The notes under the pieces are model-generated. The model ran no database searches, was not told the origin of the DNA, and saw only the letters and a list, made by a program, of their open reading frames with translations. Made by a program: the position numbers and the translations under genes. A stretch of DNA of 42,135 bases from Nitrospira sp. (GTDB lineage: Bacteria; Pseudomonadota; Gammaproteobacteria; Acidiferrobacterales; SPGG2), in NCBI GenBank assembly GCA_019456345.1, contig VRUB01000006.1, positions 1 to 42,135 on the forward strand, in the 5' to 3' direction. Position 1 is the stretch's first letter. Every line of letters begins with the position of its first letter. Below, in pieces: positions 16,413-42,135 of this stretch.

Positions 16413-16424
16413 ATGATATACAAT
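16413..16424. promoter_or_regulatory. Possible weak GntR-type operator
   Basis: ATGATATACAAT, upstream of the aconitase-type gene, matches 10 of 12 positions of the perfect palindrome ATTGTATACAAT at 27945-27956. The right half is identical. It could equally be a chance -10-like sequence. Confidence 0.25.
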
Positions 16425-17763: not shown

Positions 17764-17919
17764 AGATTTCACCACAGAGAACACAGAGAAGAAGTCTTGT
17801 ATTAGAAGTGATAAGGGCCACGCTGTAAGTGGAGAAATCGGATGACCGAGTGTAGTCGGCGATAGCTATCAACAACTCTGTGGTCTCCGTGTGCTCTGGT
17901 GTGAATATGTCTTAGGGAT
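17764..17919. repeat. CACAGAG-type inverted intergenic repeat
   Basis: The left arm TTCACCACAGAGAACACAGA (17768-17787) and a right arm reading, on the minus strand, TTCACACCAGAGCACACGGA (about 17885-17904) are relatives in inverted orientation. They frame about 100 nt between the large- and small-subunit genes. The same family occurs at 26425-26645. Confidence 0.55.
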
Positions 17920-18423: not shown

Positions 18424-18448
18424 TCGGTGACCAGTGACTAGTGTCGAC
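18424..18448. repeat. GTGACCAGTGACTAGTG short-period repeat
   Basis: Immediately after the small-subunit stop, GATCGGTGACCAGTGACTAG shows a period of about 8 nt, another degenerate intergenic repeat of the type scattered in this window. Confidence 0.35.
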
Positions 18449-18474
18449 AAATCGAACACAAATAACCGTACCTT

Positions 18475-25272: not shown

Positions 25273-25332
25273 AGCAGCCACGTGCGCGGAATGCTTCGTT
25301 CGCGCGGCGTTGTTGAATATGGAGGTCAAACT

Positions 25333-26415
25333 ATTCGTATCTTGATTCTACCCGGGGACGGCATTGGACCGGAAATAACGGCGGCCACGTGCCACGTGCT
25401 TGATATCGTGAATGCACAGCTCGGGCTGGGGCTCGAGATGGAAGAGCGTGCCATCGGTCTGGCGTCGCTCGATAGCGAGGGCACGACGTTTCCGGACGAT
25501 GTCTTGCAGCACGCTCGCCAGGCGGACGGTGTGATTCTTGGTCCGGTGTCGACCTTCGAGTATCCGCCTCGCGAGCAGGGCGGGCTCAATCCCTCGGCCG
25601 ACATTCGAATAAAGCTCGACCTATTCGCCAATATCCGGCCAAGCTGCACGCGCCCGGGCGTGTCCGCGGTGGCCACAGACATAGACCTGGTGATCGTACG
25701 CGAGAACACCGAAGGATTTTACGCCGATCGCAACATGTTTATCGGTTCGGGGGAGTTTCAACCGAGCGAGGATATCGCGATCGCGATGCGCAAAATCTCG
25801 GTGCATGGGTGTCGCCGCATCGCCCGAGTGGGCTTCGAGCTGGCGCGACGGCGTCGCAAGCAGCTGACCATGGTCCACAAGGCCAATGTGCTGAAGATCA
25901 GCGATGGTTTGTTCCGGCGTGAGGTGCTCAAAGTCTCAGAGGATTTTCCCGATGTTAACGTCGACGAGGTGCTCGTGGATGCCATGGCTGCCATGCTCAT
26001 TCGCAAGCCCGCCGCCTACGACGTGGTCCTCACCACTAATATGTACGGCGATATTCTGTCAGACGAAGCCGCCGAGCTTGCAGGCGGACTCGGTCTCGCG
26101 CCCGCCTTGAACGCCGGTGACGAATATGCGGTGGCGCAGGCCGCGCACGGCTCAGCGCCGGACATAGCCGGCCGCGGCATCGCCAACCCGGCGGCGTTGA
26201 TGCTCTCCGCGGGAATGTTGCTCGACTGGATCGGCGCACGCCACGGCCGGGAAGATCTAGTCGTTGCCGCCCGTCACGTCCGTGCCGCAGTGGACGCGGT
26301 GTTGGCCGATCCGTCGCAACATACGCCGGACCTGGGTGGAACGGCCAACACGGAGGCATTCAGCGAGGCGGTTGCGGGCCAGGTTGCAGCGTTCAGCGAT
26401 AAGGCCGCCGGTTAG
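25333..26415 (+). CDS. Isocitrate/isopropylmalate dehydrogenase family (beta-decarboxylating)
   Basis: 360 aa metal- and NAD(P)-dependent oxidative decarboxylase of the IPMDH/ICDH/homoisocitrate/tartrate/D-malate group. It contains LPGDGIGPEI at the N-terminus, LDLFANIRPS, VRENTEGFYADR (substrate loop), VHKANVLKISDG (catalytic Lys region), TTNMYGDILSDEAAEL (Mg-binding Asp) and HGSAPDIAGRGIANPAA (cofactor loop). It is too short and too divergent to be assigned leuB or icd. Start: family members begin just before this point, and the only strong ribosome site, GGAGGT at 25321, is six nt before an ATT (25333). In-frame GTG 25282 and ATG 25291 are conventional alternatives without ribosome sites. 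It would oxidise and decarboxylate a 2-hydroxy diacid from the aconitase-type reaction (inference). Confidence 0.87.
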   Translation: MRILILPGDGIGPEITAATCHVLDIVNAQLGLGLEMEERAIGLASLDSEGTTFPDDVLQHARQADGVILGPVSTFEYPPREQGGLNPSADIRIKLDLFANIRPSCTRPGVSAVATDIDLVIVRENTEGFYADRNMFIGSGEFQPSEDIAIAMRKISVHGCRRIARVGFELARRRRKQLTMVHKANVLKISDGLFRREVLKVSEDFPDVNVDEVLVDAMAAMLIRKPAAYDVVLTTNMYGDILSDEAAELAGGLGLAPALNAGDEYAVAQAAHGSAPDIAGRGIANPAALMLSAGMLLDWIGARHGREDLVVAARHVRAAVDAVLADPSQHTPDLGGTANTEAFSEAVAGQVAAFSDKAAG

Positions 26416-26658
26416 GAAGAATATTTCACACCAGAGTGCGCAGAGACCACGGAGGGATTTCGTTTTACTCAGCCCCAGCTCGTATCAAAGATAGGTCTGG
26501 CGTTAGCTTAGAGCCCTGTCGGATACTATTGACAGTTGGCTAATATATTTTTTCTCCGCGATCTTCGCGCCGTTTGCGGTAAATCTGCGCTGTTTATCGT
26601 GCAGCGTTTTTCTCTGCGAACTCTGCGATCTCTGCGGTGAGCCCTTGAAGTTTTCGGG
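26416..26658. repeat. CACAGAG/CGCAGAG-type inverted repeat gap
   Basis: The convergent gap opens with TTCACACCAGAGTGCGCAGAG and ends, on the opposite strand, with CTCACCGCAGAGATCGCAGA and further CGCAGAG units. A degenerate third block lies near 26556-26600. It is a larger relative of the 17764-17919 element and has no gene. Confidence 0.55.
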
Positions 26659-27903
26659 TTACACCGTCCCGGCCCGTTCCAGGATTACGTGAAGCAGCAC
26701 GTCGCAACCCGCAGCCAGGTCCTCCGGCCGCGCATTCTCCTTCTCGTTATGACTGATGCCACGCTCACAGGGTACAAAGACCATTCCTGTAGGTGCACAC
26801 AGCGCGAGATTGCAGGCATCGTGGCCGGCGCCGGAGTAGATGTCCATATGGGCAATGCCAAGCCGATCGGCCATCTTGCGGATGTCGCCGCTGCATCGCT
26901 CATCGAACTCGATTGTGTTGCGATGGCTGATCTGCTCGAAGCTGAGTCCGAGCCCTGCATCGGTGGCGATGTGTTCGCATGTCCGTCGCATCTTGTCGGC
27001 AATGTCAGCGAGTAAATCATTGGCCGGATGGCGGCTATCGATGGAGAATACCACTTGTCCCGGGATGGTATTGCGCGAGTTGGGGCGTACCTTGAGCGCG
27101 CCGACCGTGATCACGGGGTGTGGCTGGTGTTTAAATGCAATCGCGTTCACCGCATCGATCATGCGCGCTGCCCCGACGAGCGCATCGCGCCGCTGCACCA
27201 TCGGCAGCGTACCCGCGTGGCCCTCTTCACCGTCTACCGTCACCTTGAAGCAACGCTGACCCTGCGCACCGAGCACTACCCCCACAGCCTTGCCCTCGGC
27301 TTCGAGGATCGGCCCTTGCTCGATATGCGCCTCGAAGAAGGCCGCGACCGGATAGCCACCAACTGGCTCCGGGCCGGCGTAGTCTATCTCCTCCAGCGCC
27401 GCGCCCATCGTATTTCCATCCATATCCGCGCGCGTCAGGCCGTGATCCAGATTGTAGCGACCGGCGAACACGGCTGATGCCATCGTGCCGGAGCCGAAAC
27501 GCACGCCTTCTTCGTCGGTCCAGTTCACGACGTCGATCGGTGCTTTGGTTTGCAGGCCTGCATCCTTGAGGGTGCGTACGATCTCCAGGCCTGCGAGTAC
27601 GCCGTAGATGCCGTCGAACTTGCCGCCCAAAGGTTGCGTGTCCAGGTGGCTCCCGGTCAGCACCGGTGGTCGCGCGTTATCGGAACCGGCGCGGCGTGCG
27701 AATATACTTCCCATGCGGTCGACACGCACCGTGCAATCCGCCTGCTCGCACCAGCGGACGAACAGATCCCGTGCCTGCCGATCAAGATCGGAGAGTGCCA
27801 CCCGTCCCACACCGCCGCCAGCCGTTGCACCGATGCGACCCATCTGCATGATGCTGTCCCACAAGCGCTCGCTGTTGATTCTCAAGTTTTCCACAGACAC
27901 CAC
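26659..27903 (-). CDS. M20-family Zn-dependent amidohydrolase (N-carbamoyl-L-amino acid hydrolase/allantoate amidohydrolase-like)
   Basis: 414 aa di-zinc hydrolase of the hydantoinase/carbamoylase branch of M20. Metal ligands are visible in SGSHLDTQPLGGKFDGIYG (His, Asp), WTDEEGVRFGSGTMAS (Glu), EAHIEQGPILE (His) and SGAGHDACNLA (His); GISHNEKENARPED closes the active site. It hydrolyses N-carbamoyl amino acids, ureidoglycolate/allantoate or beta-ureidopropionate-like substrates, releasing ammonia and CO2 or an amino acid. The GTG start at 27903 is 42 nt from a GntR-like palindrome and no better start exists. Divergent from the RraA-type aldolase, so both may be controlled by one operator. 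Nitrogen-containing substrate implied. Confidence 0.88.
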   Translation of the reverse strand: MVSVENLRINSERLWDSIMQMGRIGATAGGGVGRVALSDLDRQARDLFVRWCEQADCTVRVDRMGSIFARRAGSDNARPPVLTGSHLDTQPLGGKFDGIYGVLAGLEIVRTLKDAGLQTKAPIDVVNWTDEEGVRFGSGTMASAVFAGRYNLDHGLTRADMDGNTMGAALEEIDYAGPEPVGGYPVAAFFEAHIEQGPILEAEGKAVGVVLGAQGQRCFKVTVDGEEGHAGTLPMVQRRDALVGAARMIDAVNAIAFKHQPHPVITVGALKVRPNSRNTIPGQVVFSIDSRHPANDLLADIADKMRRTCEHIATDAGLGLSFEQISHRNTIEFDERCSGDIRKMADRLGIAHMDIYSGAGHDACNLALCAPTGMVFVPCERGISHNEKENARPEDLAAGCDVLLHVILERAGTV

Positions 27904-27944
27904 CAGTTCGTGAGGAGTAAATTTAAGTAACGAGCTACTTGGAT

Positions 27945-27956
27945 ATTGTATACAAT
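27945..27956. promoter_or_regulatory. Perfect palindrome ATTGTATACAAT, GntR/FCD-type operator candidate
   Basis: This 12-bp perfect palindrome lies in the 173-nt gap between the divergent M20 hydrolase and RraA-type aldolase genes. TTGTATACAA-type sequences are typical operators of FadR/FCD-subfamily GntR regulators of organic-acid catabolism. TTGTAT in it (27946-27951) could also serve as -35 to TACTGT at 27971-27976 (19-nt spacer), placing the operator on a promoter. Confidence 0.55.
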
Positions 27957-28076
27957 CGATGGAGTTGCGCTACTGTGCGAACCGCGCGAGCCGCCCCGAA
28001 ACGTGTCAAGATCGCATTCTAATCCTTGGTCAACGATCCTGGGGAGCCTTTGGCGACGGGCAGCAAAGGAAATACG

Positions 28077-28739
28077 ATGGTGGTCCACAAAGATTTCGAG
28101 CGTCCTGATCGGGGGTTGCTAACGGCCATCGGGCAGCAGGCCACGGCTACCTTGCACGAGGCGCTGGGCAAGCAAGGCGCCATGGCGTTTCACATCAAGC
28201 CGCTTTATCCCGGCATGAAGCTTTGCGGACCGGCTTTGACGGTAGCGGTGCCGCCCGGCGATAATCTGATGATCCACTACGCGATGACGCTGGCGCGGCC
28301 GGGCGATGTACTAGTGGTGGATGCGAGCGGATTCACCGAGGCCGGGCCATGGGGCGACATCATGACGACCGCGGCGATGGCCCAAGGCATTGCCGGACTG
28401 GTAATCGACGGTTGTGTACGCGATGCTGAGACCTTGCACGAGCTTGGATTTTCCGTCTTTGCGCGCGGGACCAGTATGAAGGGCACGACCAAGGAGCATC
28501 CCGGTGATGTCAACGTGCCGATCACCTGTGGCTCAGTGCACGTGTCGCCGGGTGACATCGTCGTTGGAGACGACGACGGGGTGGTTGTCGTTCCGCGAGC
28601 GCAGGCGCCTTCGGTGCTCGAACGTGCCAGAGCACGAGAGGCGGACGAGGAGGCGAAACGGCGCGAGCTGCGGGCGGGCAAGAGCACTGTAGAGCTGCTC
28701 GGACTGGCCGACGTCCTGAAATCGCTGGGCGTCGAGTAG
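28077..28739 (+). CDS. RraA-family aldolase (4-carboxy-4-hydroxy-2-oxoadipate / 4-hydroxy-4-methyl-2-oxoglutarate aldolase-like)
   Basis: 220 aa RraA-fold protein of the LigK/GalC/HMG-CHA aldolase group: divalent-metal, Schiff-base-independent class II pyruvate aldolases that also decarboxylate oxaloacetate. Diagnostic residues are PPGDNLMIH (59-67), GPWGDI (90-95) and the pyruvate/metal-binding DGCVRD with Arg115 and Asp116. A C-terminal acidic-basic helix (residues about 180-200) is family-like. ATG at 28077 has AAGGA seven nt upstream; an upstream GTG-initiated extension to 28026 is unlikely. RNase E inhibitor function (true RraA) is less likely because the aldolase signature is intact. 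Likely end reaction of the island: cleavage to pyruvate plus pyruvate or oxaloacetate. Confidence 0.86.
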   Translation: MVVHKDFERPDRGLLTAIGQQATATLHEALGKQGAMAFHIKPLYPGMKLCGPALTVAVPPGDNLMIHYAMTLARPGDVLVVDASGFTEAGPWGDIMTTAAMAQGIAGLVIDGCVRDAETLHELGFSVFARGTSMKGTTKEHPGDVNVPITCGSVHVSPGDIVVGDDDGVVVVPRAQAPSVLERARAREADEEAKRRELRAGKSTVELLGLADVLKSLGVE

Positions 28740-28846
28740 TGCGGCTGGCCGTTTTCAGGCTGTCACAACATACTCCCACTAGCGAGCGTTTCGCAGAACA
28801 TACCGGTCCCGGTTTCTACTAACCGTCAAAATTCTTGGATAGTGTC

Positions 28847-30034
28847 ATGAATGATAATGCCCTACCGCTGTCCCGCTTCACTGTGCTTGACCTCACCCGG
28901 GTGCGCTCGGGCCCCACGGCGGTGCGTCAGCTTGCCGATTGGGGGGCCAACGTAATCAAGATCGAGCCGCCGGAAACGATAGACAAGTCCCAGGGCATGG
29001 GCGGAGCGCGCCATGGTCCCGACTACCAAAATATCCACCGCAACAAGCGCAGCATAGCGTTAAATCTGAAGGACCCCGAAGGCGTCACTGTGTTCATGCG
29101 CCTCGTGAAGCAGGCCGATGTCGTGGTAGAGAACTACCGCCCGGATGTTAAGCAGCGACTCGGTATCGACTACGAGTCCGTTCGGGCGGTCAACCCGCGC
29201 ATCGTCTACGCCAGCATTTCCGGTTTCGGGCAAGACGGACCCTACAGCAAACGCCCGGGGTTCGACCAGATCGCACAAGGGATGGGCGGACTCATGTCGA
29301 TCACGGGCTTGCCGGGGCAGGGACCGGTTCGAGTCGGCGTACCGATTGCTGACCTTACGGCGGGGATGTATTGTGCGATTGGTATACTCGTCGCGCTGTT
29401 GGAGCGCGAAGAATCCGCTCAGGGCCAATGGGTACAAACTTCACTGTTGCAGGCACAGATCGCGATGCTCGACTTCCAGGCGGCGCGCTGGTTGATCGCG
29501 CACGAGGTCCCGCCGCAAGCCGGCAACAATCACCCGACCAGCATTCCGACCGGTGTGTTTCGCACTGCCGATGGTCATATCAATATTGCCGCCTCGGGCG
29601 AGCATATGTGGCAGCGTTTGTGCCAGACACTTGACGTCGCGGAGCTGCTGGACAACCCTGAGTTCGCGAGCGCTGAGCTGCGTTCCAAGAATCGCGATGC
29701 GGTCAATGCGGCGTTGGAGCAGCGCACGTCCAAGCATAACAGCGCCGAGCTGATTGACCGTCTCAACCACGCGGGTGTTCCCTGCGGCCCGATCTATACA
29801 ATCGACAAGATGTTCGCGGATCCCCAGGTGACGCATCTGCACATGACGCAGCCTGTAGATCATCCGGTTCTGGGTAAGATCAATGTCGTGGGTCAGCCCG
29901 TGACCATGAGCCGTGCCGTACGCCGCCAATACACGCCCGCGCCGGAACGCGGCCAGCATACGGCTGACGTCCTCGCCGAGTTTGGCCTGAGTGCCGATGA
30001 GATTGCTGATCTGCAGCAGCGGAAAATCATCTGA
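28847..30034 (+). CDS. CaiB/BaiF family III CoA-transferase (second)
   Basis: 395 aa from the ATG at 28847 (an in-frame TTG at 28835 is unlikely). The N-terminal FTVLDLTRVRSGPTAVRQL and GANVIKIEPPE are typical. The catalytic Asp is Asp169 in VGVPIADLTAGMYCAIGI, exactly the formyl-CoA transferase numbering, and GQDGPYSKRPGFDQIAQGMG precedes it. It is distinct in sequence from the CoA-transferase at 12479. It is followed by a crotonase after 20 nt and preceded by the RraA-type aldolase, so a CoA-activation, hydration/isomerisation and cleavage series is plausible. Donor and acceptor acids are unknown. Confidence 0.9.
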   Translation: MNDNALPLSRFTVLDLTRVRSGPTAVRQLADWGANVIKIEPPETIDKSQGMGGARHGPDYQNIHRNKRSIALNLKDPEGVTVFMRLVKQADVVVENYRPDVKQRLGIDYESVRAVNPRIVYASISGFGQDGPYSKRPGFDQIAQGMGGLMSITGLPGQGPVRVGVPIADLTAGMYCAIGILVALLEREESAQGQWVQTSLLQAQIAMLDFQAARWLIAHEVPPQAGNNHPTSIPTGVFRTADGHINIAASGEHMWQRLCQTLDVAELLDNPEFASAELRSKNRDAVNAALEQRTSKHNSAELIDRLNHAGVPCGPIYTIDKMFADPQVTHLHMTQPVDHPVLGKINVVGQPVTMSRAVRRQYTPAPERGQHTADVLAEFGLSADEIADLQQRKII

Positions 30035-30054
30035 AGCACTGTACGGGAATCGTC

Positions 30055-30849
30055 ATGCAACTCGCGACGGGCAAGCTTATTGCCGAAAAAGATGGCCCCG
30101 TTGGTCGACTAACCTTTAACAATCCGGCGCGGCGCAATGCTATTTCGTTTGCTATGTGGCAGGCGCTGCCAACCTTGATCGAAGAGTTTGCGAGCGATGA
30201 CGCTATTCGTGTCATTATCCTCAAGGGCGCGGGTGGGCAAGCGTTCTCGGCGGGAAATGATATCTCCGAGTTCAAGCAGCGCCGATCGACGAAGCAAGGA
30301 ATTGCCGAATACGACGCGGCCACGCACCGCGCCTACGACGCACTAATCTCCATCGACAAGCCGACCATCGCCATGATCGAAGGTTTCTGTATCGGTGGCG
30401 GGCTCGAGGTGGCGCTGCTGTGCGACATCCAGATCGCGGCCAACAACGCGCGTTTCGCAATGACTCCAGCCAAGTTGGGCCTGGGATACAAGTTCGACGA
30501 CGTGCGCTTGCTTGTGAGCAATGTCGGCCCGAAGTATGCCAAGGAGATTCTGTTTACCGGGCGTCAGTTCAGCGCCGAGGAGGCGCGGAAAATGGGTATC
30601 GTCAATCGCGTGGTGCCGGCGCAGGGGCTTGCGGATTTCGTGGAGGAATATGCGCAAACCATTGCCGACAATGCACCACTTTCTATCAGAGCCATCAAGA
30701 AGATTATCGCCGAAGCCGCAAAAGGACCGGGACAGGCTGACCTGGATCTGTGCGAGCGACTGGTGGATGCGTGCCATGCAAGTGAAGACTGCAAGGAAGG
30801 CCAACACGCGTTTGCAGAGAAACGAAAGCCCAACTTTACCGGCCGCTGA
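30055..30849 (+). CDS. Enoyl-CoA hydratase/isomerase family protein (second)
   Basis: 264 aa crotonase-fold protein. The oxyanion region reads QAFSAGNDISEF (62-73) and the helix motif CIGGGLEVALLCDIQ (112-126) has Glu118, equivalent to the first catalytic Glu. The second is absent: the usual PE is TPAKLGLGY, with Ala139. Standard syn-hydration is therefore not assured. The C-terminal EGQHAFAEKRKPNFTGR is very close to the other crotonase's EGVQAFLAKRQPVFKGR, implying a common origin within this subfamily. ATG at 30055 follows GGGAAT. Operon with the CoA-transferase ending 20 nt upstream. Confidence 0.88.
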   Translation: MQLATGKLIAEKDGPVGRLTFNNPARRNAISFAMWQALPTLIEEFASDDAIRVIILKGAGGQAFSAGNDISEFKQRRSTKQGIAEYDAATHRAYDALISIDKPTIAMIEGFCIGGGLEVALLCDIQIAANNARFAMTPAKLGLGYKFDDVRLLVSNVGPKYAKEILFTGRQFSAEEARKMGIVNRVVPAQGLADFVEEYAQTIADNAPLSIRAIKKIIAEAAKGPGQADLDLCERLVDACHASEDCKEGQHAFAEKRKPNFTGR

Positions 30850-30987
30850 GCCGCATATCGCATGAACTCACACCAGTGGCTTTGGGAACTTTGGCCGAAA
30901 CTAAAGTTCCTCGTCTGCCGGGACGAGACCCGGCTAATATACTATCGCCGGCAGGCGACACAATGAAAACACTAAGGGGATCGAAAA

Positions 30988-31359
30988 ATGATAATTGAAA
31001 AAGTAGCAGCGGTTTTTTTTCTGATCGTGGGCCTGTCTTATCTGTTGAATGCGAGAGTCTGGGTGAGATTCGCAAAGTCTTTATTGAGCGAACCGCAGCG
31101 AATGTTACCGGTCCTTTGGGTCACCTTGCCCATCGGGCTCATCATTATCTTTGTGCACAATATCTGGACCGGATGGTCCATAATCGTCACGCTCATCGGT
31201 TGGGTTCTCACTATCAAGAGTGCGTTTTATCTATTGTTCCCGCAGATCGTGAAAGTGTTTTCCGGTTTGTCGGACGAAGCATTACGGCGAAATTTTCTGG
31301 GGGGTGGCGTGTTCATGACCGTGCTCGGCGCCCTGCTCGTATTTCGCTACGTGATGTGA
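30988..31359 (+). CDS. Small integral membrane protein, unknown function
   Basis: 123 aa, about four hydrophobic segments: residues 6-22, 40-58, 64-84 and 105-122, with short charged loops (RFAKSLLSEPQRM, KVFSGLSDEALRRN). I do not recognise a named family. AAGGGGATCG gives a ribosome site about 8 nt before the ATG at 30988, and TAATATACT near 30936-30944 may be a -10 element, so it probably has its own promoter. A tiny overlapping ORF (30963-30998, MKTLRGSKNDN) starts upstream and stops inside it. Confidence 0.78.
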   Translation: MIIEKVAAVFFLIVGLSYLLNARVWVRFAKSLLSEPQRMLPVLWVTLPIGLIIIFVHNIWTGWSIIVTLIGWVLTIKSAFYLLFPQIVKVFSGLSDEALRRNFLGGGVFMTVLGALLVFRYVM

Positions 31360-31475
31360 TGCGACCAATCTCGCCAACGATCGTTGGCGGGCCACGCTGA
31401 CGTTGCGCTATTCCGATCAGGCCGCCTTGGGCCACATCAACAATGTGGCCTTTCTCGAACAGCAAAAGCAATTTC
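31358..31475 (+). pseudogene. Truncated hot-dog acyl-CoA thioesterase, N-terminal fragment
   Basis: Plus-strand frame from 31358 reads NDRWRATLTLRYSDQAALGH, then INNVAFLEQQKQF. This is the N-terminal motif of 4-hydroxybenzoyl-CoA/YbgC-like thioesterases (RYSDxxxxGHxNN, with the catalytic Asp and the conserved His-Asn). Recognisable homology stops after about 38 residues, where the DNA becomes the 3' end of the minus-strand RND pump gene. No good start codon with a ribosome site is present. This looks like a gene cut by a rearrangement with its break near 31475. Confidence 0.6.
31372..31389. repeat. Perfect 18-bp palindrome
   Basis: CGCCAACGA followed directly by TCGTTGGCG, within the truncated thioesterase and 12 nt after the membrane protein stop. 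It may act as a terminator-like stem or a protein-binding site; no T run follows. Confidence 0.5.
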
Positions 31476-34400
31476 ACTCGCCCGACTGCGCTGCCGAACC
31501 AGGTGCCGGTTTTCCTTCTCGCTCCGTCGACTTGACCCCAAGCTCACCGAGTCGCTGCATAACGACGTAGAACACCGGCGTAAAGATCAGTGACATCACC
31601 GTGGCAGCAATCATTCCGCCCACCACCGCCGTGCCGATAGCTTGACGGCTCGCTGCCCCGGCCCCGGCGGCGATCACCAAAGGCATAAATCCGGCAATCG
31701 ACGAGATCGCCGTCATCAAGATGGGGCGAAACCGCAGTTTTGCTGCGGTAGTGGCCGACTCCAGAATGCCTTTGCCCTGAGCCCGTTGCTCGCGCGCGAA
31801 CTCGACGATCAAGATGGCGTTCTTGCTCGCCAGCCCGATGAGCAGCACGATGCCGACCTGGGTGTACACGTTGTTGTCGAACTCTCGCATTATCAATGCG
31901 ATCACGGTGCCGAGCACCGCCAACGGCACGACCAGGATCACCGCGGCCGGGGCGGTCCAGCTCTCGTATTGCGCTGCGAGCACCAGGAACACCAGCACTA
32001 TCGCTAGCGCAAAGATTAGGATTGCCTCCGAGCCCACCTTCTTTTCCTGATAGGACATGCCGGTCCACTCGTATCCCATCGACGCCGGCAGCTTGGCGTC
32101 GGCCATCTGCTCCATCAGCGCGAGCGCCTGCCCGGAGCTGAAGCCGGGGGCCGCCTCGCCGGTGATTGACGCCGCCGGGAACAGGTTGTAGCGCAGGATC
32201 GTCTGCGGCCCCAGGCTGTGCTCCACTTTCACGAGGGTGCCGATGGGCACCATGCGACCCTGGGCGTCGCGCACGTCGAGCCGGCGGATGTCCTCCGGCT
32301 CGAGGCGGAATTGATGGTCCGCCTGCGCCTTCACCTGCCAGGTGCGGCCGAACTTGTTGAAGTCGTTGACGTAAACCGAGCCCAGGTAGGTTTGCAGCGT
32401 GCCGAAGACCTCGTTCAGGGACACCCCCAGCTTCTTGGCCTTGGTGCGGTCGACCTCGGCGAAGAGCTGCGGCACGTTTGCACGGAAGGTCGTGTTCAGA
32501 TTGGTGAGACCGGACTGCGCGCGACCGTCGGCAATGATTTCTCGGGTCATCTGCTCGAGCTCCTGCAAGCCGACGCCGCCGCGATCCTGAAGTTGCATCT
32601 GGAAGCCACCGGCCACACCGAGGCCCGGGATAGCCGGTGGCGGGAACGCAAACACGATCGCCTCCTGGATGCCGCGAAACTCGGCCATCAAGTGCCCGAG
32701 AATCGCCCTCTGGCTCAGGCTCGGATCCGTGCGCTCATCCCACGGATCGAAGGTGATGAACACCGTGGCCGCGTTGGAGGCGTTGGTGCCGTCGATGATT
32801 GAGAAGCCGCCAAGAGTGACCCAGTCCCGCACACCGGGCGTTTCCTTGAGAATGCCGTCGATGCGCTTGAGCACCTGCTGGGTGCGCTCCAGCGAGGCGG
32901 CGTCGGGCAACTGTATGGCCGCCAGCACATAGCCCTGGTCCTCGATGGGCAGGAAGCCGGTGGGCACCTTGCCGAACTGCCAGCCCGTGATGCCCAAAAG
33001 GCCAACAAAGAGCAGCATCACGATCGCGGTACGGCGCACCAGGGCCTTGGTTATTCCCATGTAACCGCCTTCGAATTTAGTGAAGAGCGAGTCAAAGCCG
33101 CGGAAGAAGGCGTTCTTCCGTTTCTTGGGCGGTCTCAGCACGAGTGCTGAGAGCGCCGGGCTCATGGTCAGCGCGTTAATCGAGCTGAACACGGTCGCCA
33201 CGGCGATCGTCAGGGCGAACTGGCGATACATTTCGCCGGTAATACCCGGAAGAAACGCCGTTGGAACGAATACCGCCAGCAACACCAGTGTGGTCGCCAC
33301 CACCGGCCCTGATACCTCGCTCATGGCCTTGATGGCCGCCTGCTTCGCACTGAGGCCTTTTCCTATGTGCGTCGCCGTGGCTTCCACGACGACGATGGCG
33401 TCGTCCACCACCACACCGATGGCCAGCACCAGGCCGAAAAGCGTGAGCATGTTAAGCGAGAAACCGAACATCCCCATTACCGCGAAGGTGCCGATTAACG
33501 ACACCGGGATCGCCACCGCCGGGATCAGGGTGGCGCGCCAGTCCTGCAGAAAGATAAAGAGCACGGCGAATACCAGGGCAGCGGCCTGGAACAGCGTAAC
33601 GAACACCTCCTTGATCGACTCGCTGACGAAGATTGTCGTGTCGTAGGGGATCCGGTACTCCATGCCTTCGGGGAAGAACCCGCTGAGGTCATCCAGGGCC
33701 GCGCGCACCTGGTTTGCGACGTCAAGTGCATTGGCACCGGGCAACTGGTAGACGCCGATGCTCGCCGACGGCGCGCCGCTGATGGCCGATGTGATGTCGT
33801 AGGTCTTGCTGCCGAGGTCTACACGCGCGATGTCCTTGAGACGCGTGATGCGGCCGCCTTCGCCGGTCTTGACGATGATCTGCTCGAACTGCTCGATATC
33901 GCTCAGGCGCCCGAGGACATTGACGGGGTACTGGAAGCTCTGCCCGCTAGGGGCCGGCGGCTGCCCGATCTGACCCGCCGCCACCTGGACGTTTTGTTCC
34001 CGGACCGCATCGACGACGTCCTGGGTCGTCAGGCGGCGCGACTTGAGCTGGCGCGGGTCGAGCCAGATGCGCATGCTGTAGTCGCTGGGAGGGAAGGTCA
34101 CGACCTCGCCGACGCCGGGGATGCGGGCCAGCACATCCTTGATGCGGAGCGTGGCGTAGTTGGACAGGAAAAGCTCGTCATAGCGCCCGTCGGGGGATAA
34201 GAGAGAGATAAAAAGGATGATGTTGGTCGACTTCTTCTTTGTGTTGACCCCCTGGCGTTTGACCTCCTCGGGCAGATTGGGCTCGGCGAGCGTTACGCGG
34301 TTCTGCACCAGCACCTGCGCGAAGTCGAGATCCGTGCCTACCTCGAATGATACGGTGAGCTTGTATGAGCCGTCGCTTGCACTGGTCGAGGACATATAGA

Positions 34401-34629
34401 TCGAGCCCTCGACACCGTTGACCTGCTGCTCGATGGGGGCGGCGACAGTTTCTGCGACGACCTGGGCGTTGGCGCCCGGATAAGTGGCCGATACCTCGAC
34501 GGTGGGCGGTGTAATCTCCGGGTACTGCGCGACCGGGAGCCCCCCCAGCGTGATGGCGCCGGCGATGACGATCACGATCGAGATGACGCTGGCGAAGATC
34601 GGGCGTTCGATAAAGAAGCGGGAAAACAT
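31474..34629 (-). CDS. RND multidrug efflux permease, HAE1 family (AcrB/MexB-like)
   Basis: 1051 aa inner-membrane proton-driven pump subunit, full length for the family. It starts MFSRFFIERPIFASVISIVI, with the porter domain (PGVGEVVTFPPSDYSMRIWL) and proton-relay Asp pair in GVVVDDAIVVVEA near residue 407. The second half has VLVFLVLAAQYESWTAPAAV and KNAILIVEFAREQ, with the latter holding the fourth-helix-bundle Lys region. It moves hydrophobic drugs, detergents or bile-like compounds. The adaptor gene is upstream in the same unit (22 nt). No outer-membrane channel (OprM/TolC) gene follows; TolC from elsewhere must be used. The last codons abut a truncated thioesterase, so the C-terminus (EGKPAPGSAAQSGE) may be altered. 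Confidence 0.93.
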   Translation of the reverse strand: MFSRFFIERPIFASVISIVIVIAGAITLGGLPVAQYPEITPPTVEVSATYPGANAQVVAETVAAPIEQQVNGVEGSIYMSSTSASDGSYKLTVSFEVGTDLDFAQVLVQNRVTLAEPNLPEEVKRQGVNTKKKSTNIILFISLLSPDGRYDELFLSNYATLRIKDVLARIPGVGEVVTFPPSDYSMRIWLDPRQLKSRRLTTQDVVDAVREQNVQVAAGQIGQPPAPSGQSFQYPVNVLGRLSDIEQFEQIIVKTGEGGRITRLKDIARVDLGSKTYDITSAISGAPSASIGVYQLPGANALDVANQVRAALDDLSGFFPEGMEYRIPYDTTIFVSESIKEVFVTLFQAAALVFAVLFIFLQDWRATLIPAVAIPVSLIGTFAVMGMFGFSLNMLTLFGLVLAIGVVVDDAIVVVEATATHIGKGLSAKQAAIKAMSEVSGPVVATTLVLLAVFVPTAFLPGITGEMYRQFALTIAVATVFSSINALTMSPALSALVLRPPKKRKNAFFRGFDSLFTKFEGGYMGITKALVRRTAIVMLLFVGLLGITGWQFGKVPTGFLPIEDQGYVLAAIQLPDAASLERTQQVLKRIDGILKETPGVRDWVTLGGFSIIDGTNASNAATVFITFDPWDERTDPSLSQRAILGHLMAEFRGIQEAIVFAFPPPAIPGLGVAGGFQMQLQDRGGVGLQELEQMTREIIADGRAQSGLTNLNTTFRANVPQLFAEVDRTKAKKLGVSLNEVFGTLQTYLGSVYVNDFNKFGRTWQVKAQADHQFRLEPEDIRRLDVRDAQGRMVPIGTLVKVEHSLGPQTILRYNLFPAASITGEAAPGFSSGQALALMEQMADAKLPASMGYEWTGMSYQEKKVGSEAILIFALAIVLVFLVLAAQYESWTAPAAVILVVPLAVLGTVIALIMREFDNNVYTQVGIVLLIGLASKNAILIVEFAREQRAQGKGILESATTAAKLRFRPILMTAISSIAGFMPLVIAAGAGAASRQAIGTAVVGGMIAATVMSLIFTPVFYVVMQRLGELGVKSTEREGKPAPGSAAQSGE

Positions 34630-34650
34630 GGCGGCCTGGCGATCCGGTTA

Positions 34651-35922
34651 TTACTGCTTCTGTTTCGCTTCCGGGGTATCAGCGCCGGACGCGGGGCTCT
34701 GCGCCTTTTCGGCTTTCGCGGCCGTCCGTAGCGCCGACGACGTGAGCGAGGCCATGTCGATCTTTTCCGGGCCTACCTTTCCCCCGGGACGCGCACGCTG
34801 GATTCCATTGACCACGACCCAGTCTTCGCTGCGCAACCCTTCTTCGATGACGCGCAACCCGTCAACGAGTCGCCCGAGCCGGACGTTATGCTTCTCGACC
34901 ACGTTCTCGCTGTTCACGACTAGTAAGTAGCGCCCACTTTGGTCGGCGTTGATAGCACGGTCCGTGACCAAGGGTATGTCCGGGCGTTTCGCAATGGGCA
35001 GACGAACGCGTGCAAAAAGGCCCGGTATGAGCGCGTACGGCACTTCTTCATTATTGAACACGGCACGCAGCTGTATTGTGCCGGTGTCCGGATCCACTCC
35101 GGACTCGGCGAAATCGAGCACGCCCTCGTGCGGATAGCCCTCCTCGTCTGCGAGACCAAGATAAACATGTATATCTGCTTTTCGTATAGTTGCCTGTCGC
35201 TCTCGGTCCTTGGCATCGCGAAGCCCTTTTTTCTTGACTTCCGCGCGATACATCGCCCGGACGCGCAGCAGGTCGAGCTCGTTCAGATTGAAGTAGACGT
35301 ACATCGGGTGGGGATTGGTGACCTCCGTCAGTACCGTCGCCTCTCCCTGGCCGACCAGGTTTCCGACGTCGACCCTGTTTCTCCCCACCCGCCCGCTGAT
35401 AGGGGCTTTCACCCGCGTGTAGCCGAGATTCAGCTGCGCACGCGCGATATCGGCGTTAGCGCGCTCGATGGCGGCACGGGCCAGCGCTTGTTCTCCGCGC
35501 CATTTCACGACCTCTACATCGGACCCCGCTTGCTGCTTGAATAGCCGCTGCGAGCGGGAGAACTCTTTTTGTGCCCGCTCGAGCTTCGCCTGCGCACTGG
35601 CCAGCTCCGCCTGCGCCGCTTGCAGATCGGCCTGGTACTCTTTCGGGTCGATTACGAAGAGGAGATCGCCATTCTTGACTTCGGTGCCCGGCTGGAAATG
35701 CATGCTTTGGAGCACGCCGGCCACGCGTGCGCGCACCTCCACCTGTTCCGATGCCACCGTTGTTCCGGTGAACTCGAGGTAGTCGATCACCTCCTCGATC
35801 AGCGGCCGGGCAACCGTTACCTTCGGTGGCGGCGGCGCGACATAGGTGTTCGCCTGCTCGCAGCCTGCCAGCAGCGAGGCAAGTACGATGCAGCTTACTC
35901 GCAGGTTGATTTCGCTTCGCAT
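34651..35922 (-). CDS. RND efflux periplasmic adaptor (AcrA/MexA-like lipoprotein)
   Basis: 423 aa membrane fusion protein. The signal peptide ends in lipobox SLLAGC with lipidated Cys21. Then follow the barrel-sandwich hybrid half (EVRARVAGVLQSMHFQPGTE), a long coiled-coil hairpin (LQAAQAELASAQAKLERAQK and continuing to about residue 155), and the second half-motif NLGYTRVKAPISGRVGRNRV. The C-terminal end is Ala/Gln/Lys-rich. It would link the RND permease at 31474-34629 with an outer-membrane channel. The coiled coil is somewhat long, which is acceptable in the family. Upstream GGAAACCAG lies before the ATG at 35922. First gene of the efflux operon; no TetR-type repressor is beside it. Confidence 0.92.
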   Translation of the reverse strand: MRSEINLRVSCIVLASLLAGCEQANTYVAPPPPKVTVARPLIEEVIDYLEFTGTTVASEQVEVRARVAGVLQSMHFQPGTEVKNGDLLFVIDPKEYQADLQAAQAELASAQAKLERAQKEFSRSQRLFKQQAGSDVEVVKWRGEQALARAAIERANADIARAQLNLGYTRVKAPISGRVGRNRVDVGNLVGQGEATVLTEVTNPHPMYVYFNLNELDLLRVRAMYRAEVKKKGLRDAKDRERQATIRKADIHVYLGLADEEGYPHEGVLDFAESGVDPDTGTIQLRAVFNNEEVPYALIPGLFARVRLPIAKRPDIPLVTDRAINADQSGRYLLVVNSENVVEKHNVRLGRLVDGLRVIEEGLRSEDWVVVNGIQRARPGGKVGPEKIDMASLTSSALRTAAKAEKAQSPASGADTPEAKQKQ

Positions 35923-36361
35923 TTCGCTGGTTTCCGATTGATCAAGCGTTGGAGCTATGAGGCCAAGGCCCAGCCATGTCAGGGAACGGACATCCTACTG
36001 CCTGCCCCGAACCAAAAACTGCACCAGTCTTGTGTTTTTGCTATGAGATCCTACCTAGGGTCGTCCGTTTTCGCGTGCCCGACGCTGGTGTTGACGGACG
36101 GCGAGATTGGTTTTTCTTGACCCCTGTTCTTGTCAGAACTGGGATAACAACACCGTGTGCGCAAAGGCCGCAATATTAAGGTACTCACGTCCCCGTGTCA
36201 TCGGGTCCGGGTGCAAAACCTTTCAGGATTCGGGGTTTTACAGATTTGGCCTTGATCTGGCCACGCGACGCTCGATTTATCCAAGGTGGCGGCCGCCTCA
36301 AAGCGGTGCACGTTCGGTGCCGCATTGCCGTGACATTTCGGGAGGCTGTGCCGCCCCGGCG
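35923..36361. other. Gap without a recognisable gene
   Basis: These 439 nt separate the efflux adaptor from the patatin gene; the only notable item is a short inverted repeat, GTTCTTGTCAGAAC (about 36125-36138). It must hold the efflux promoter, but no well-spaced -35/-10 pair in the leftward direction was found. Short ORFs here have no protein-like features. Confidence 0.35.
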
Positions 36362-37672
36362 CTACGGGGCCTTAGTGCCGGGGGGCGAGTCTTTCCAAGG
36401 ATAGCCCGCTTTCGCCATCCGATAACCCAGATCGAAGAGCTTGCCCATGTACTCGGGGTCGAACATCTCCTTGGACTCTTCTTTGAACTCAGGCGGAATG
36501 TAGGCCAGGTGATAGTCCACCCCGTCGCGCCGGGCGCCGACGTAAATGCGGTACATATCGCCGATGCCCTGCGTGCGAATGAGCGCGGCGATGGAACGCC
36601 CGGCGATCGGCCGCAGGCGGCGCTCGACCGCCTTCCACGTGGGATCCAGCTTCGCGTTGCGGATCAGGTACACGTTCGGACGACCCTTCGCATCGAGACG
36701 CTCCGCAACGCGGCGCCAGTCCAGACCAAGCGGGTAAAGAAAGACCTGAGAGGTCACACCCCCGTCTACATGCAACTCATCGTAGCGCTGCCCCTTGGCC
36801 TCGACCTCGATTATCACCGGCGGGAAGGCGACGGGGATGGAGGCCGAGGCCAGTATGATGTCTTGTACGAGCTCCAAGGCGTTGGGGACACGGCTGGCGG
36901 CGATGCGCGCGATATTCCACATGACCGGCCTGTCGGCATCGAGATTGGTGGTCCCGATATACAGCATGCGTCCCTTGCGAAACTCGATCGCGATCTCCTC
37001 CAGTACGTTTTGATCCACATGTTTGGCGATCAACGCCTTCAAGGGCGCGCTGCTGGCGGTGGCATCGCTCGCCAGCAGGGCCATCAGGATATTGCGTTTC
37101 TTGAGCAGGTCCTTAGTCGAATACTTGGTAAATAAATCCTTGAGCTGAGCGTCGTACTCGGACCCGAGAAATGCGAACGGCGCTATCAACGCCCCGGTGC
37201 TAACGCCCGTCACCAGGGTGAATTCGGGACGGGTTCCGGCCGCGGTCCAGCCGACCAGCACGCCGGCGCCGAAGGCCCCGTCCTGGCCGCCGCCGGAGAG
37301 CGCCAGGTAGTTGTGCTTGCGGCCCATGATGGCGGGATAGCGGGCTTGCATATGGGCCTTCGATTCGGCAAACCACTCTTTTATGTACGGCGGCGTCTCG
37401 TCGCCCCAGATTCGAGCCTCGGGGAGTCCCGGCACCTCGGCGATGGCGCTGTAGATTGCCGGCACGGGATTGCGCTCCGGGATGCCGGCGCAGCCCTGCG
37501 CCAGGACCACCACCACCGCCAGTGCCAGCAGCTGAGCCCAACTCGGCGCGCCACGCACTGGGCGCAAGCGCGGCCAGCCAACGGCCTGACGCAGTGCCCA
37601 TCGTGTGCTTTCGTGTGCCGTCCCGGCACCGCTGCGCTGAGCCGAACCGACTTGGATTTCACCAGATATCAT
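36362..37672 (-). CDS. Patatin-like phospholipase, membrane-anchored
   Basis: 436 aa lipid acyl hydrolase of the patatin family. Its Ser-Asp dyad is Ser158 in GVSTG and Asp303 in HVDGGV; the oxyanion loop is SGGGQDGAFGAG (126-137). Residues 47-60 form a hydrophobic stretch ending QGC61, which may be a non-canonical lipobox or a signal anchor, so the enzyme probably faces the periplasm. The N-terminal 40 residues before it are Arg-rich and unusual; ATG 37672 has AGGGGAAAG eight nt upstream, supporting the long start. Substrate (phospholipid or other ester) unknown. It is near DUF481 and the pump, an envelope cluster. Confidence 0.87.
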   Translation of the reverse strand: MISGEIQVGSAQRSGAGTAHESTRWALRQAVGWPRLRPVRGAPSWAQLLALAVVVVLAQGCAGIPERNPVPAIYSAIAEVPGLPEARIWGDETPPYIKEWFAESKAHMQARYPAIMGRKHNYLALSGGGQDGAFGAGVLVGWTAAGTRPEFTLVTGVSTGALIAPFAFLGSEYDAQLKDLFTKYSTKDLLKKRNILMALLASDATASSAPLKALIAKHVDQNVLEEIAIEFRKGRMLYIGTTNLDADRPVMWNIARIAASRVPNALELVQDIILASASIPVAFPPVIIEVEAKGQRYDELHVDGGVTSQVFLYPLGLDWRRVAERLDAKGRPNVYLIRNAKLDPTWKAVERRLRPIAGRSIAALIRTQGIGDMYRIYVGARRDGVDYHLAYIPPEFKEESKEMFDPEYMGKLFDLGYRMAKAGYPWKDSPPGTKAP

Positions 37673-37875
37673 TCGCTTTCCCCTAGGTATCGGTTACTTC
37701 CTCGCGTCCGCGCGTGCCAGCCGCCCCCAAGCCTCAATCCCTATACCATGGAGGGTGCCTTGGCACAAAGACAACAGCCCTCGCATTCCTGTGAGCCTTC
37801 CTCGATACGGGCTTACAAGTTCGGGCGCGCTCGCATGCCGAAGATGGGCCCGTGCGGGCGTGCCAGCGATTCATC

Positions 37876-39238: not shown

Positions 39239-39242
39239 TACG

Positions 39243-39309: not shown

Positions 39310-39330
39310 CATCGAATTTTACTAGATGAC

Positions 39331-39360: not shown

Positions 39361-39363
39361 TAC

Positions 39364-40743
39364 TCAGCCAGATGGCTCTGCGGTGGAGGCACCCGCCGTG
39401 GTGAGGCGCAGCGCTGCAATGTCATCGAGCTTATCGAGTTCCCACAACGTTGCAAGCAGCTGATCGGCGGCCGTATCGCCGATCACGGGTACGGCGAGTT
39501 CCTGATACTTCGCCGTCAATTCCTCATCGGTAAGAGGATTGTCCGGATCACCCTTGCGTGTGGGCGAGTGATGACGATAGGTGTTGCCGTCGGTGGTTTC
39601 GATTTCTAACATTGCGGCGCGTTGGCGCGGAAAGGTAGCATTGATCTCCGGGTCTACTTGTAACTCGATACTTGCCATGACTTGGCGCACTTGCGGATCA
39701 GTTAGGCGCTCGGGACTGAATGCGTCCAGGCGCACCTGGCCCGTGAGCAACGCAACGGCGGCGCAATAGGGCAGGCTGAACTTGGCCTCAAACGCCGTGC
39801 GTGGCTTGAGGTTGCCGGTGATCTCCAGCGCCTTGGCGTAAGTGCCGACCGTGATGCGCTTGACGTTCGCCGCAGATAGTTTGTGTTGTTGTCGCAGTGC
39901 AATGACGCCGTCGACGGCCGCAAAGGTATGACCGCAACAGCCGTGGTTCTTCTGCGTCATGCGGGTGATGTTGTAACGCGAGCGAGCGCTGAGATCGGCG
40001 AAGGCGCCGTACCAATCCGCATCCTTGCTCATGGCGGCACCGAAGCCGCGCGGGCCCTCTAGAATATCTTTGGCGCCGGTGACACCTTGCTCCGCGGCTA
40101 ATGCCACCAGCACGCCGGTCTCGGCCGCGCGACCCGCATGCAGCGGCTTACTCATCGCATCGGAGCGGAACGCCTGTTGTAGTCCAGCCGCCATGGTGCC
40201 GGCATTGGCGAGCGCATGGGCCGCACGCGCGCTGTCGAGGCCGAGGATCATGGCCGCTGCCATCGCCGCGCCGAAGGTGCCCACCGTCCCGGTCGTGTGC
40301 CAGTACTCGTAGTGCGTCGGCGTGACCGCCACGCCGATGCGTGTGGAGATTTCGTAGCCGGCGATGATGCCACGCAGGAACTGGTCCCCGGATACGTGGC
40401 GGCTCTGCGCCGCAACGAGAGCGGCGGCAATCACCGAAGCCCCGGGGTGATAGATCGCATCGCGGAAGATATCGTCAAACTCCACGGTGTGCGCGGCACT
40501 GCCGTTGATCAACGCGGCAGTTCGCGCGCTCACGCGGTGACCTGAAGGAACCAGCATCGCCGCGCCGCGGTCGATGTCCTCTCCCAGCGCCGCAACGAGC
40601 AAGCTGGCCGGTGGCAGCATGCCGCCTGGGATCGTAGCGGCGAACCAGTCGATCACACAGCGCTTGGCGGCGTGCATAACCTCGGCCGGCAGAGCGACAG
40701 TGCGTGTGGCCACGGCGTATTCAGCAAACTTATCGACCAGCAT
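39364..40743 (-). CDS. MmgE/PrpD family protein (second)
   Basis: 459 aa MmgE/PrpD protein. Characteristic parts are AKRCVIDWFAATIPG, INGSAAHTVEFDDIFRDAIYHPGASVIAAAL (substrate/Asp-His region; quoted ends only: GSAAHTVEFDD and HPGASV), TGTVGTFGAAMAAA, and a KNHGCCGHTFAAVDGVIAL block matching the KPYPSCR...H segment of relatives, here with Cys-Cys-Gly-His. Function within dehydratase/isomerase/decarboxylase choices is open. It lies 11 nt after the ThDP enzyme gene on the same strand and is certainly co-transcribed. ATG 40743 is preceded by AGGGACAC. Its 3' end has a diverged duplicate at 39243. Confidence 0.88.
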   Translation of the reverse strand: MLVDKFAEYAVATRTVALPAEVMHAAKRCVIDWFAATIPGGMLPPASLLVAALGEDIDRGAAMLVPSGHRVSARTAALINGSAAHTVEFDDIFRDAIYHPGASVIAAALVAAQSRHVSGDQFLRGIIAGYEISTRIGVAVTPTHYEYWHTTGTVGTFGAAMAAAMILGLDSARAAHALANAGTMAAGLQQAFRSDAMSKPLHAGRAAETGVLVALAAEQGVTGAKDILEGPRGFGAAMSKDADWYGAFADLSARSRYNITRMTQKNHGCCGHTFAAVDGVIALRQQHKLSAANVKRITVGTYAKALEITGNLKPRTAFEAKFSLPYCAAVALLTGQVRLDAFSPERLTDPQVRQVMASIELQVDPEINATFPRQRAAMLEIETTDGNTYRHHSPTRKGDPDNPLTDEELTAKYQELAVPVIGDTAADQLLATLWELDKLDDIAALRLTTAGASTAEPSG

Positions 40744-40754
40744 CGGCTGTGTCC

Positions 40755-42135
40755 CTAAAACTGCGCGTTGTACTGGGTGGGGTCGATCCGTGCCTCGACC
40801 ACCAGCGGGCGGTCAAGCTTGGTGGCCTGAGCGAGCACGCGCTCCAGCGCGTTTGTGTTGTCTGTTCGCTCACCGTGACAGCCCATGGCTTCCGCGAGCT
40901 TGACCAGATCGCTGGCATCGAAACGAGTACCGACGGACGGATAGTTCTTGCGCGTTTGCTTGATCTCGATGCGATGCAAGGTGTTGTCGCAGAAGACGAT
41001 GACCACCACACCCAACCCGAGTGACGCCGCCAGCTGCAGCTCCCCCTGAACCATGGCAAAGCCACCGTCGCCCGTGAAGCAGATCACTGGGCGATCGCTC
41101 GCGAGCAGCTTGGCGGTCATCGCGCCTGGCAGCGCAAAACCCATGGCGGAAAGTCCATTGGTCGCCAGCACTGATCCCGACTCATACGACTTCCAGCCCT
41201 GACCGATGAGAATCTTGTGTGAGCCCACGTCCATGGTGATGAGGGTGTTGCGTGGGAACGCCGCGCGTGCAACATCGACCACGTCCGAAGGATTGAGTTT
41301 GCCCGATACCCGTCCCTGGTAGTAAGCGGCAAACAGTTTCTCGCGATGCGTGCGGATTTCTTGCTCCGACCACTTCGGTTCACCGCGGTCACTATCAGTC
41401 AACGCCTGCAGAATGGCGGTGATGGAGCCGACAAGCTCGATGTCGGCCGGGTAGATCTGGTCGGTATTGGGAACGGCGTCGATGTGCACCACCGGGACCG
41501 CGAGGCTCCAGCTCTTAATAAGTTCTACAGGGTCGAAGCCGACCGCCAGGATCAGATCGGCCGATCCGAGAAACTCCCACATCAGCGTATTGCAGGCCAT
41601 GTCTACGGTACCGGCGTAGTAGGGATGATCGTCGGCCAGCAGCCCTTTGGCCTTAAGCGAAACCGCGACCGGCGTACCGCTTCGCTCCACGAACGCGCGC
41701 AAGGCATCGCCGGCGTTCGCGCGTTTCGCTGCCATGCCCGCAATGATTACCGGTCGTCGCGCCTTGTTAATGAGCTGAAACACATCGGTGTTGACGGCGT
41801 CAGTACGAAACGTCTCGGTCCAGCGGCTTTCCGCATTCATGGGCGGCAGCCGTATATCGGCATCGGCTGCGTCGGCTGCGCCTACGTTAATAGGTATCGT
41901 AATATGCACGGGGCCGGGTCGCTCTGCCGTTGCTACGCGCAGGGCCTTGCGCATGATCGCACCGGCTGCCTCGGGGACCATCCGCGTGGCCCACTTGGAG
42001 ATCGGCGCAAAGAGCCGGTTGTGATCTACATTCTGATGCGTGAACGTGGGCTCGAGCCGTGTGTTCATCTGCCCGGACATTGCCAGCATGGGCGTGCGAT
42101 CGAGGAAGGCGCAGGCCACACCGTTGACCAGGTTG
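40755..42135 (-). CDS. Thiamine-diphosphate enzyme, acetolactate synthase-like (N-terminus beyond right edge)
   Basis: At least 460 codons, open to the window end. The first visible residues NLVNGVACAFLDRTPMLAMS match the PYR-domain end of acetolactate synthase-like enzymes (TNLVNGVATAYLDRAP type), so roughly 90 N-terminal residues, including the catalytic Glu, are missing. The central domain contains KARRPVIIAGMAAKRANAG and the C-terminal PP domain has the ThDP/Mg motif GDGGFAMVQGELQLAASLGL, ending VVIVFCDNT. Candidates are acetolactate synthase, 2-oxo-acid decarboxylase or carboligase types; no small regulatory subunit gene is adjacent. Operon with MmgE/PrpD downstream hints at a 2-oxo diacid carboligation or cleavage followed by dehydration. 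Confidence 0.88.
   Translation of the reverse strand, partial: NLVNGVACAFLDRTPMLAMSGQMNTRLEPTFTHQNVDHNRLFAPISKWATRMVPEAAGAIMRKALRVATAERPGPVHITIPINVGAADAADADIRLPPMNAESRWTETFRTDAVNTDVFQLINKARRPVIIAGMAAKRANAGDALRAFVERSGTPVAVSLKAKGLLADDHPYYAGTVDMACNTLMWEFLGSADLILAVGFDPVELIKSWSLAVPVVHIDAVPNTDQIYPADIELVGSITAILQALTDSDRGEPKWSEQEIRTHREKLFAAYYQGRVSGKLNPSDVVDVARAAFPRNTLITMDVGSHKILIGQGWKSYESGSVLATNGLSAMGFALPGAMTAKLLASDRPVICFTGDGGFAMVQGELQLAASLGLGVVVIVFCDNTLHRIEIKQTRKNYPSVGTRFDASDLVKLAEAMGCHGERTDNTNALERVLAQATKLDRPLVVEARIDPTQYNAQF

Follow-up and report, generated by a model that had tools for sequence, protein, structure and literature searches.

A palindrome conserved in the divergent gap between rraA and an M20 amidohydrolase gene is a probable FadR-type GntR operator

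The divergent gap between an RraA-like aldolase gene (rraA) and an M20 family amidohydrolase gene contains a perfect 12-bp palindrome, which raises the question of whether this palindrome is an operator and, if so, which kind of regulator would bind it. We analysed the whole stretch of DNA in which it lies (the window; 42,135 nt) together with its source genome (G000; 2.99 Mb in 413 contigs, 84.6% complete, 4.5% contamination) and three further genomes (G001–G003), which with G000 make up a family sample of four. The gap and the genes on either side of it are as follows.

26659..27903, minus strand: M20 family amidohydrolase gene, divergent from rraA (Pfam and NCBIfam; 78% identical to its ortholog in the divergent arm of G001)
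27904..28076, no strand: divergent intergenic gap holding the palindrome, 173 bp (from ORF coordinates)
27945..27956, no strand: operator-like palindrome ATTGTATACAAT (sequence, and conservation of the 10-bp palindrome in the corresponding G001 gap)
28077..28739, plus strand: RraA-like aldolase gene, rraA (Pfam PF03737 and NCBIfam NF006731; 77% identical to the G001 ortholog)
28835..30034, plus strand: CoA-transferase family III gene, downstream of rraA (Pfam; G001 ortholog after rraA, 78% identity)
30055..30849, plus strand: enoyl-CoA hydratase/isomerase gene, downstream of the CoA-transferase gene (Pfam; same order in G001, 77% identity)

The rraA product scores 234 bits (cut-off 179) against NF006731, the NCBIfam family of 4-carboxy-4-hydroxy-2-oxoadipate aldolase/oxaloacetate decarboxylase. 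Its start was set by us at the ATG at 28077, which is preceded by AAAGGA; the TTG at 28026 is also possible. The M20 protein is typed by NCBIfam as an allantoate amidohydrolase/Zn-dependent hydrolase. None of 40 Pfam queries, representing 39 distinct window ORFs of at least 120 aa among the 83 listed, matched a DNA-binding family, in agreement with the earlier observation that the window has no regulator of its own.

The palindrome had been reported by a first-pass annotation of the window, and direct sequence checking found it exact at 27945-27956, with the core TTGTATACAA. Given that the 60% GC window contains 17 perfect 12-bp palindromes, palindromy alone is not rare and is no evidence by itself. 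The word TNGTATACNA occurs in the window a single time, at this site, which lies 41 bp from the M20 ORF and 120 bp from the rraA ORF. The core contains GT-N2-AC and so has the GT-N2/3-AC palindrome form of FadR-subfamily GntR operators. The accessible text of PMC4494728 describes FadR-subfamily sites as A/T-rich palindromes with TKGT/ACMA boxes, a GT-AC spacing of 2 nt in some groups and, where a divergon has a single site, a position near the middle of the gap. The window site resembles these operators in being an A/T-rich palindrome with GT and AC 2 nt apart in a divergent gap of structural genes; it differs from what that text reports in lying off-centre and in that the K of TKGT is T in both half-sites (PMC4494728).

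A parallel in form is the operator of Atu1419, an FCD repressor of the VanR group from Agrobacterium fabrum, which according to the accessible text of PMC7797058 binds ATGTATACAT at sites overlapping -10 boxes. Both are short perfect palindromes with the same TGTATACA centre at catabolic genes, and the window site likewise contains -10-like hexamers (PMC7797058). As described there, Atu1419 acts at its own promoter and its neighbours through two sites per region (one of them degenerate in one region), whereas the window has one site and no linked regulator gene. Literature searches returned no paper with ATTGTATACAAT and none with TTGTATACAA and GntR together. Among the matches listed, none for TTGTATACAA alone concerned bacterial operators by title, and nothing linking RraA or oxalate genes with GntR concerned this operator.

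Positional evidence for function comes from G001, which belongs to the same family and another genus. Its contig is identical to QKEI01000271.1 (Candidatus Muproteobacteria isolate SZUA-472, a metagenome assembly) over 16,660 compared bases. At E 1e-30, RraA matches were found in 5 of 60 genomes including G000; the only close one is that of G001 (77% identity), the others being 39–46% identical. In G001, the sole same-family relative with a close rraA ortholog, the divergent gap contains GTTGTATACAAT, reading toward rraA and 45 bp before it, so that the site is conserved upstream of the ortholog. The other arm of the G001 divergon comprises an NMT1-like receptor, a DctM transporter and the M20 ortholog. 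Apart from this site the two gaps have diverged, also in length (173 bp in the window, 247 bp in G001). Their longest common word is TTGTATACAATC, 12 bases, a length equalled or exceeded in 12 of 2,000 shuffles; a perfect 10-bp palindrome common to both gaps arose in 1 of 20,000. The site is off-centre in both genomes in opposite senses: the closer gene is M20 in the window and rraA in G001.

The same G001 contig contains a further copy of the word. G001 has 7 distinct TTGTATACA places, 5 of them within ORFs; the 2 intergenic ones are both on the contig of the rraA cluster, one before rraA and the other before a TPP-enzyme/MmgE unit. The latter site reads TTTGTATACATT and is separated from its ORF by 56 bp. 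Orthologous to this unit (80% identity) are window positions 39364-42119, which hold two genes.

39364..40743, minus strand: MmgE/PrpD family gene, second in the TPP-enzyme unit (Pfam; G001 ortholog after the TPP gene, 80% identity)
40755..42119, minus strand: TPP enzyme gene of acetolactate synthase-like type, 5'-truncated at the contig end (Pfam, NCBIfam and synteny)

No regulator gene was found among the 12 of 18 non-overlapping ORFs scanned in the G001 cluster.

Word frequency was compared with that of the reversed word as a control. TNGTATACNA was found 10 times (control 25) in G000 and 15 times (control 23) in G001; we inspected 8 of the 10 places and 10 of the 15, respectively. On both strands, TTGTATACA and its control numbered 6 and 6 in G000, 8 and 6 in G001, 16 and 14 in G002, and 3 and 5 in G003. 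Core-word enrichment was therefore rejected as support, the reversed control being equal or higher in G000. The full word ATTGTATACAAT has one exact copy in G000 and four one-mismatch places (five in all), against none for the reversed word. Three of these four (contigs C257, C279 and C359) are within ORFs, and the 5 versus 0 excess was rejected as support for this reason; the fourth (C203) is in A/T-rich sequence outside ORFs, near a contig end. The first-pass annotation had proposed a genome scan and had taken a random motif frequency, together with a genome lacking any GntR regulator, as counting against its idea; the short cores in G000 do occur at or below control frequency, whereas a GntR regulator gene is present (see below). 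The core is not enriched genome-wide; the evidence is one of position, and frequency neither supports nor excludes function. Across the order, the exact ATTGTATACAAT word was found in 4 of 57 genomes, once in each. Outside the family it lies within an ORF in one genome (G005) and, in another (G019), in a divergent gap flanked by genes that seem unrelated by eye.

Within the family, G002 is the genome in which the exact word is physically linked to a regulator gene. On its contig C150, the 12-mer stands 35 bp before a tcuA-like gene, and an FCD GntR gene comes next. The product of the tcuA-like gene is a flavoprotein resembling tricarballylate dehydrogenase (NCBIfam TcuA, 604 bits, cut-off 369). 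The TTGTATACA sites on C150 and C159 fall within short ORFs of 91 and 94 aa; we take the C150 site as lying before tcuA because its enclosing ORF is of this short class and overlaps the tcuA ORF. G002 has 14 distinct TTGTATACA places, of which 11 were examined for ORF context; C270 was seen separately, and C170 and C174 were left out. The C270 place is inside the start of tctC, and two more of the examined places are intergenic but adjoin other types of gene (DUF808 on C83, peptidase S58 on C104). In G003, all 3 TTGTATACA places are within ORFs. No ortholog of the C150 FCD regulator was found in G000 or G001, whose FCD genes (one found in G000, two in G001) encode proteins 29–32% identical to it; the C150 protein is thus an analogue and not the cognate regulator. 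It has relatives at E 1e-30 in at least 2 of 369 sampled genomes of the class (G418 and G107), and the gap adjoining the G418 gene, which stands beside an FAD oxidoreductase gene, contains no GTATAC.

More distant rraA loci do not carry the site in this form. Among the 29 loci besides that of G001 (30 in total), none retains GTATAC in a match of at most 2 mismatches; core-less words with 2 mismatches lie about 300–390 bp before rraA in three of them (L078, L080 and L083). An FCD-like gene occurs anywhere in the locus in 5 of 30, and adjoins rraA on the opposite strand in 3 of 30, all Cupriavidus. In these three (L062, L063 and L084, at about 7070-8000), where the FCD-like GntR gene is beside rraA, the gaps hold TTGTAC-like words. 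These gaps lack both a T-N-GT-N2/3-AC-N-A site and a perfect 10-bp palindrome; that of L063 has a bare GTATAC without the TNGTATACNA frame.

Is there a candidate regulator in the source genome? The first-pass annotation had suggested an FCD-domain GntR gene elsewhere in the genome, and exactly one was found in G000, on contig C165 (85.3 bits, cut-off 24.3); the remaining two GntR genes are aminotransferase fusions of the MocR type. The C165 gene is also the only FCD gene common to G000 and G001 (83% identity). On C165 (locus L010), positions 3775-10905 form an operon-like array of TctC, TctB, TctA, FCD GntR, TPP enzyme and CoA-transferase III genes. The domains, together with the formyltransferase and formate-tetrahydrofolate ligase genes that follow, lead us to interpret the TPP enzyme and the CoA-transferase III as oxalyl-CoA decarboxylase and formyl-CoA transferase, respectively. 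Sites of the type GGTATACNANATAC, with small deviations, precede tctC in G000, G001 and G002 (GATATAC in G002) and the FCD gene in all four genomes of the family, so that this operon type with its sites is a well-defined candidate regulon. The same site type appears on contig C264 of G000 (locus L127, 1501-1516) as TGGTATACGAGATACC, some 245 bp upstream of a gene for a DctP-type TRAP receptor, which is likely a further member of this regulon.

The first-pass annotation had also expected the FCD gene to carry the same motif upstream. GTATAC-type sites are present at its own promoter and operon, and the own-promoter site, CGGTATACTAGATACC, has the same core as the window site; the extended motif is different. 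Judged from their sequence, the GGTATACNANATAC-type sites look like a palindrome with an extra half-box, an arrangement described for GntR-family sites in the accessible text of PMC4494728. The window site shares with them the GTATAC centre, the genome and the possibility of an FCD protein as binder, and departs from them in having T before GTATAC and a partial box.

This departure can be expressed in numbers. A matrix built from the GGTATACNANATAC-type sites gives the window site 12 bits, compared with 26–30 for the sites from which it was built; 7 of these 8 sites read GGTATAC with a strong ATAC-type box, and the window reads TGTATAC. The extra box of the window, ATCC on the minus strand, ranks 13th of 178 oriented GTATAC contexts (89 contexts, drawn only from the loci examined), below 12 contexts of which 7 are training sites and 1 is that of C203. 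For the box, the rraA and TPP sites of G001 do less well, with best ranks of 28 and 73. The top-ranked box of all is inside a G002 ORF (contig C80), which indicates that a good box arises by chance too and that the box alone is weak evidence.

The C203 site (locus L011, 4021-4032) reads ATTGTATACAAA and lies in A/T-rich sequence about 400 bp before a fumarylacetoacetate-hydrolase gene. It is the second TTGTATACAA of G000 and is combined with a full AAATACC half-box, which hints that GGTATACNANATAC-type and window-type sites can overlap. As a conserved operator of the fumarylacetoacetate-hydrolase gene it was rejected as unsupported, since the ortholog loci of G001–G003 (75–76% identity) contain neither TNGTATAC nor GTATACNA on the scanned strand.

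On the protein side, both FCD proteins (those of C165 and of G002 C150) carry SRTP[IV]RE. For Atu1419, the accessible text of PMC7797058 gives Arg, Thr and Arg as the DNA contacts, and we read this segment, by eye rather than from an alignment, as holding the same three residues.

Taken together, these data make it probable that the palindrome is an operator of an already known kind. We infer, with a probability of roughly 0.6, that it is a FadR-subfamily (FCD) GntR-type operator through which a regulator encoded in trans would control the divergent promoters of rraA and M20. The case is made by G001, where the core is kept in the same place within an otherwise diverged gap, and is supported by the location of both intergenic G001 TTGTATACA sites in one cluster and by the exact word standing with an FCD gene in G002. 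Against it count the unenriched core, conservation that comes from one relative, and the off-centre position of the site. The earlier proposal of a GntR-like operator under a regulator encoded elsewhere thus finds backing in the GT-N2-AC form, the conserved core and the FCD gene on another contig, and lacks support in its extension to a window-wide regulon.

As a particular form of the operator reading, the C165 regulator itself may bind the palindrome, with the oxalate, TRAP-uptake and rraA units belonging to one regulon. We entertain this only tentatively. It is encouraged by the C165 gene being the only FCD gene found in G000 and the only one shared with G001, by the GTATAC-type sites before tctC, the FCD gene and the C264 DctP gene, and by the coincidence on C203 of TTGTATACAA with a full half-box. 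The window site nevertheless fits the extended motif of C165 poorly in both the base before GTATAC and its matrix score, the G001 boxes rank lower still, and the best box lies within an ORF; the C165 regulator is for these reasons a candidate only. In a comparably doubtful alternative, the binder would belong to another family, such as the MarR type, or would be an FCD protein from the missing part of the genome, the latter overlapping with the operator reading. Short TTG-CAA palindromes also serve winged-helix dimers of other families, completeness of the genome is 84.6%, and G000 and G001 share the site without having the FCD gene that adjoins the word in G002. However, neither the 39 queried window ORFs nor the scanned ORFs of the G001 cluster yielded a regulator, and in G002, where alone a regulator gene is in physical linkage with the exact word, its product is of the FCD type.

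Two further explanations do without a regulator, and we regard both as improbable. Each strand of the palindrome reads TACAAT, matching 5 of 6 positions of the sigma-70 -10 consensus, so that in a divergent gap the palindrome might represent two overlapping divergent -10 boxes and not a protein operator. A scan of 27850-28120 found neither a sigma-70 consensus promoter pair nor a terminator. Moreover, the C of TACA and the G of TTGTA, neither of which a -10 box needs, are retained at all four sites (the window site, two in G001 and one in G002). The hexamer reads TACAAC on one strand of the G001 rraA site and TACATT at the G001 TPP site. An operator overlapping a -10 box would be compatible with either reading, and -10 boxes may be a real alternative or a coexisting feature. 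Still less probable, in our estimation, is a chance palindrome without function. The abundance of 12-bp palindromes in the window, the unenriched core words and the scattered contexts of the exact word elsewhere in the order (4 of 57 genomes; outside the family, within an ORF or in an unrelated-looking gap) would all suit it, and the palindrome of the orthologous gap, matched in 1 of 20,000 shuffles, and the pair of intergenic sites in one G001 cluster speak against it.

If the FadR-type operator reading is correct, a dimer of a trans-encoded FCD regulator would occupy the single palindrome in the divergon, where it would control the promoters of the rraA–CoA-transferase–enoyl-CoA hydratase unit and of the M20 amidohydrolase gene. 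The regulator would most likely act as a repressor of both arms or of the nearer one, and an organic-acid ligand may relieve its binding. It could be the product of the C165 FCD gene or of an FCD gene in the missing ~15% of the genome. A more ambitious version, in which one global FCD repressor joins oxalate degradation, TRAP/tripartite carboxylate uptake and the aldolase/amidohydrolase unit through strong GGTATACNANATACC and weaker TTGTATACAA operators, seems to us unlikely. Were one FCD protein to serve both the oxalate-type operon and the rraA cluster, the choice among several carboxylate substrates would hang on one switch in an uncultured lineage; if it does not, the result is a routine annotation gain. 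In either case, this lineage gains a concrete, conserved putative operator and a short list of one candidate regulator.

The first-pass annotation had further proposed that a shared repressor unites scattered units of the window, pointing to a 10/12 match before a hydro-lyase gene. The match is present.

16413..16424, plus strand: 10/12 match ATGATATACAAT before the aconitase-family gene (16510), probably a chance match (from sequence)

In ATGATATACAAT, A replaces the G of one half-site, and with this G lost it is not a good GntR operator. At a tolerance of 2 mismatches, 2 matches occur in the window (0.36 expected), a number reached in 5 of 100 shuffles. With a matrix built from the four sites, 27945 alone scores high (24 bits, being itself a matrix site), and 16413 and two in-gene words score 13–14. 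We therefore rejected 16413 as a regulon member. A good site is found only in the rraA/M20 gap, and the idea of a window-wide regulon is left unsupported beyond the rraA/M20 pair and, by analogy with G001, possibly the TPP/MmgE unit. Positions 16510-18423 hold an aconitase-family large subunit gene (homoaconitase/isopropylmalate-dehydratase type) and a small-subunit-like ORF; the large subunit had no match in G001–G003 at E 1e-60, an empty answer that shows nothing by itself.

Finally, the two halves of the window match different contigs of its relatives. Positions 543-19119 correspond to the C150 cluster of G002 (12 of 17 compared ORFs, 49–82% identity, two of the 12 sharing one G002 gene), and positions 25282-42119 correspond to C256 of G001 (7 of 11 compared ORFs).
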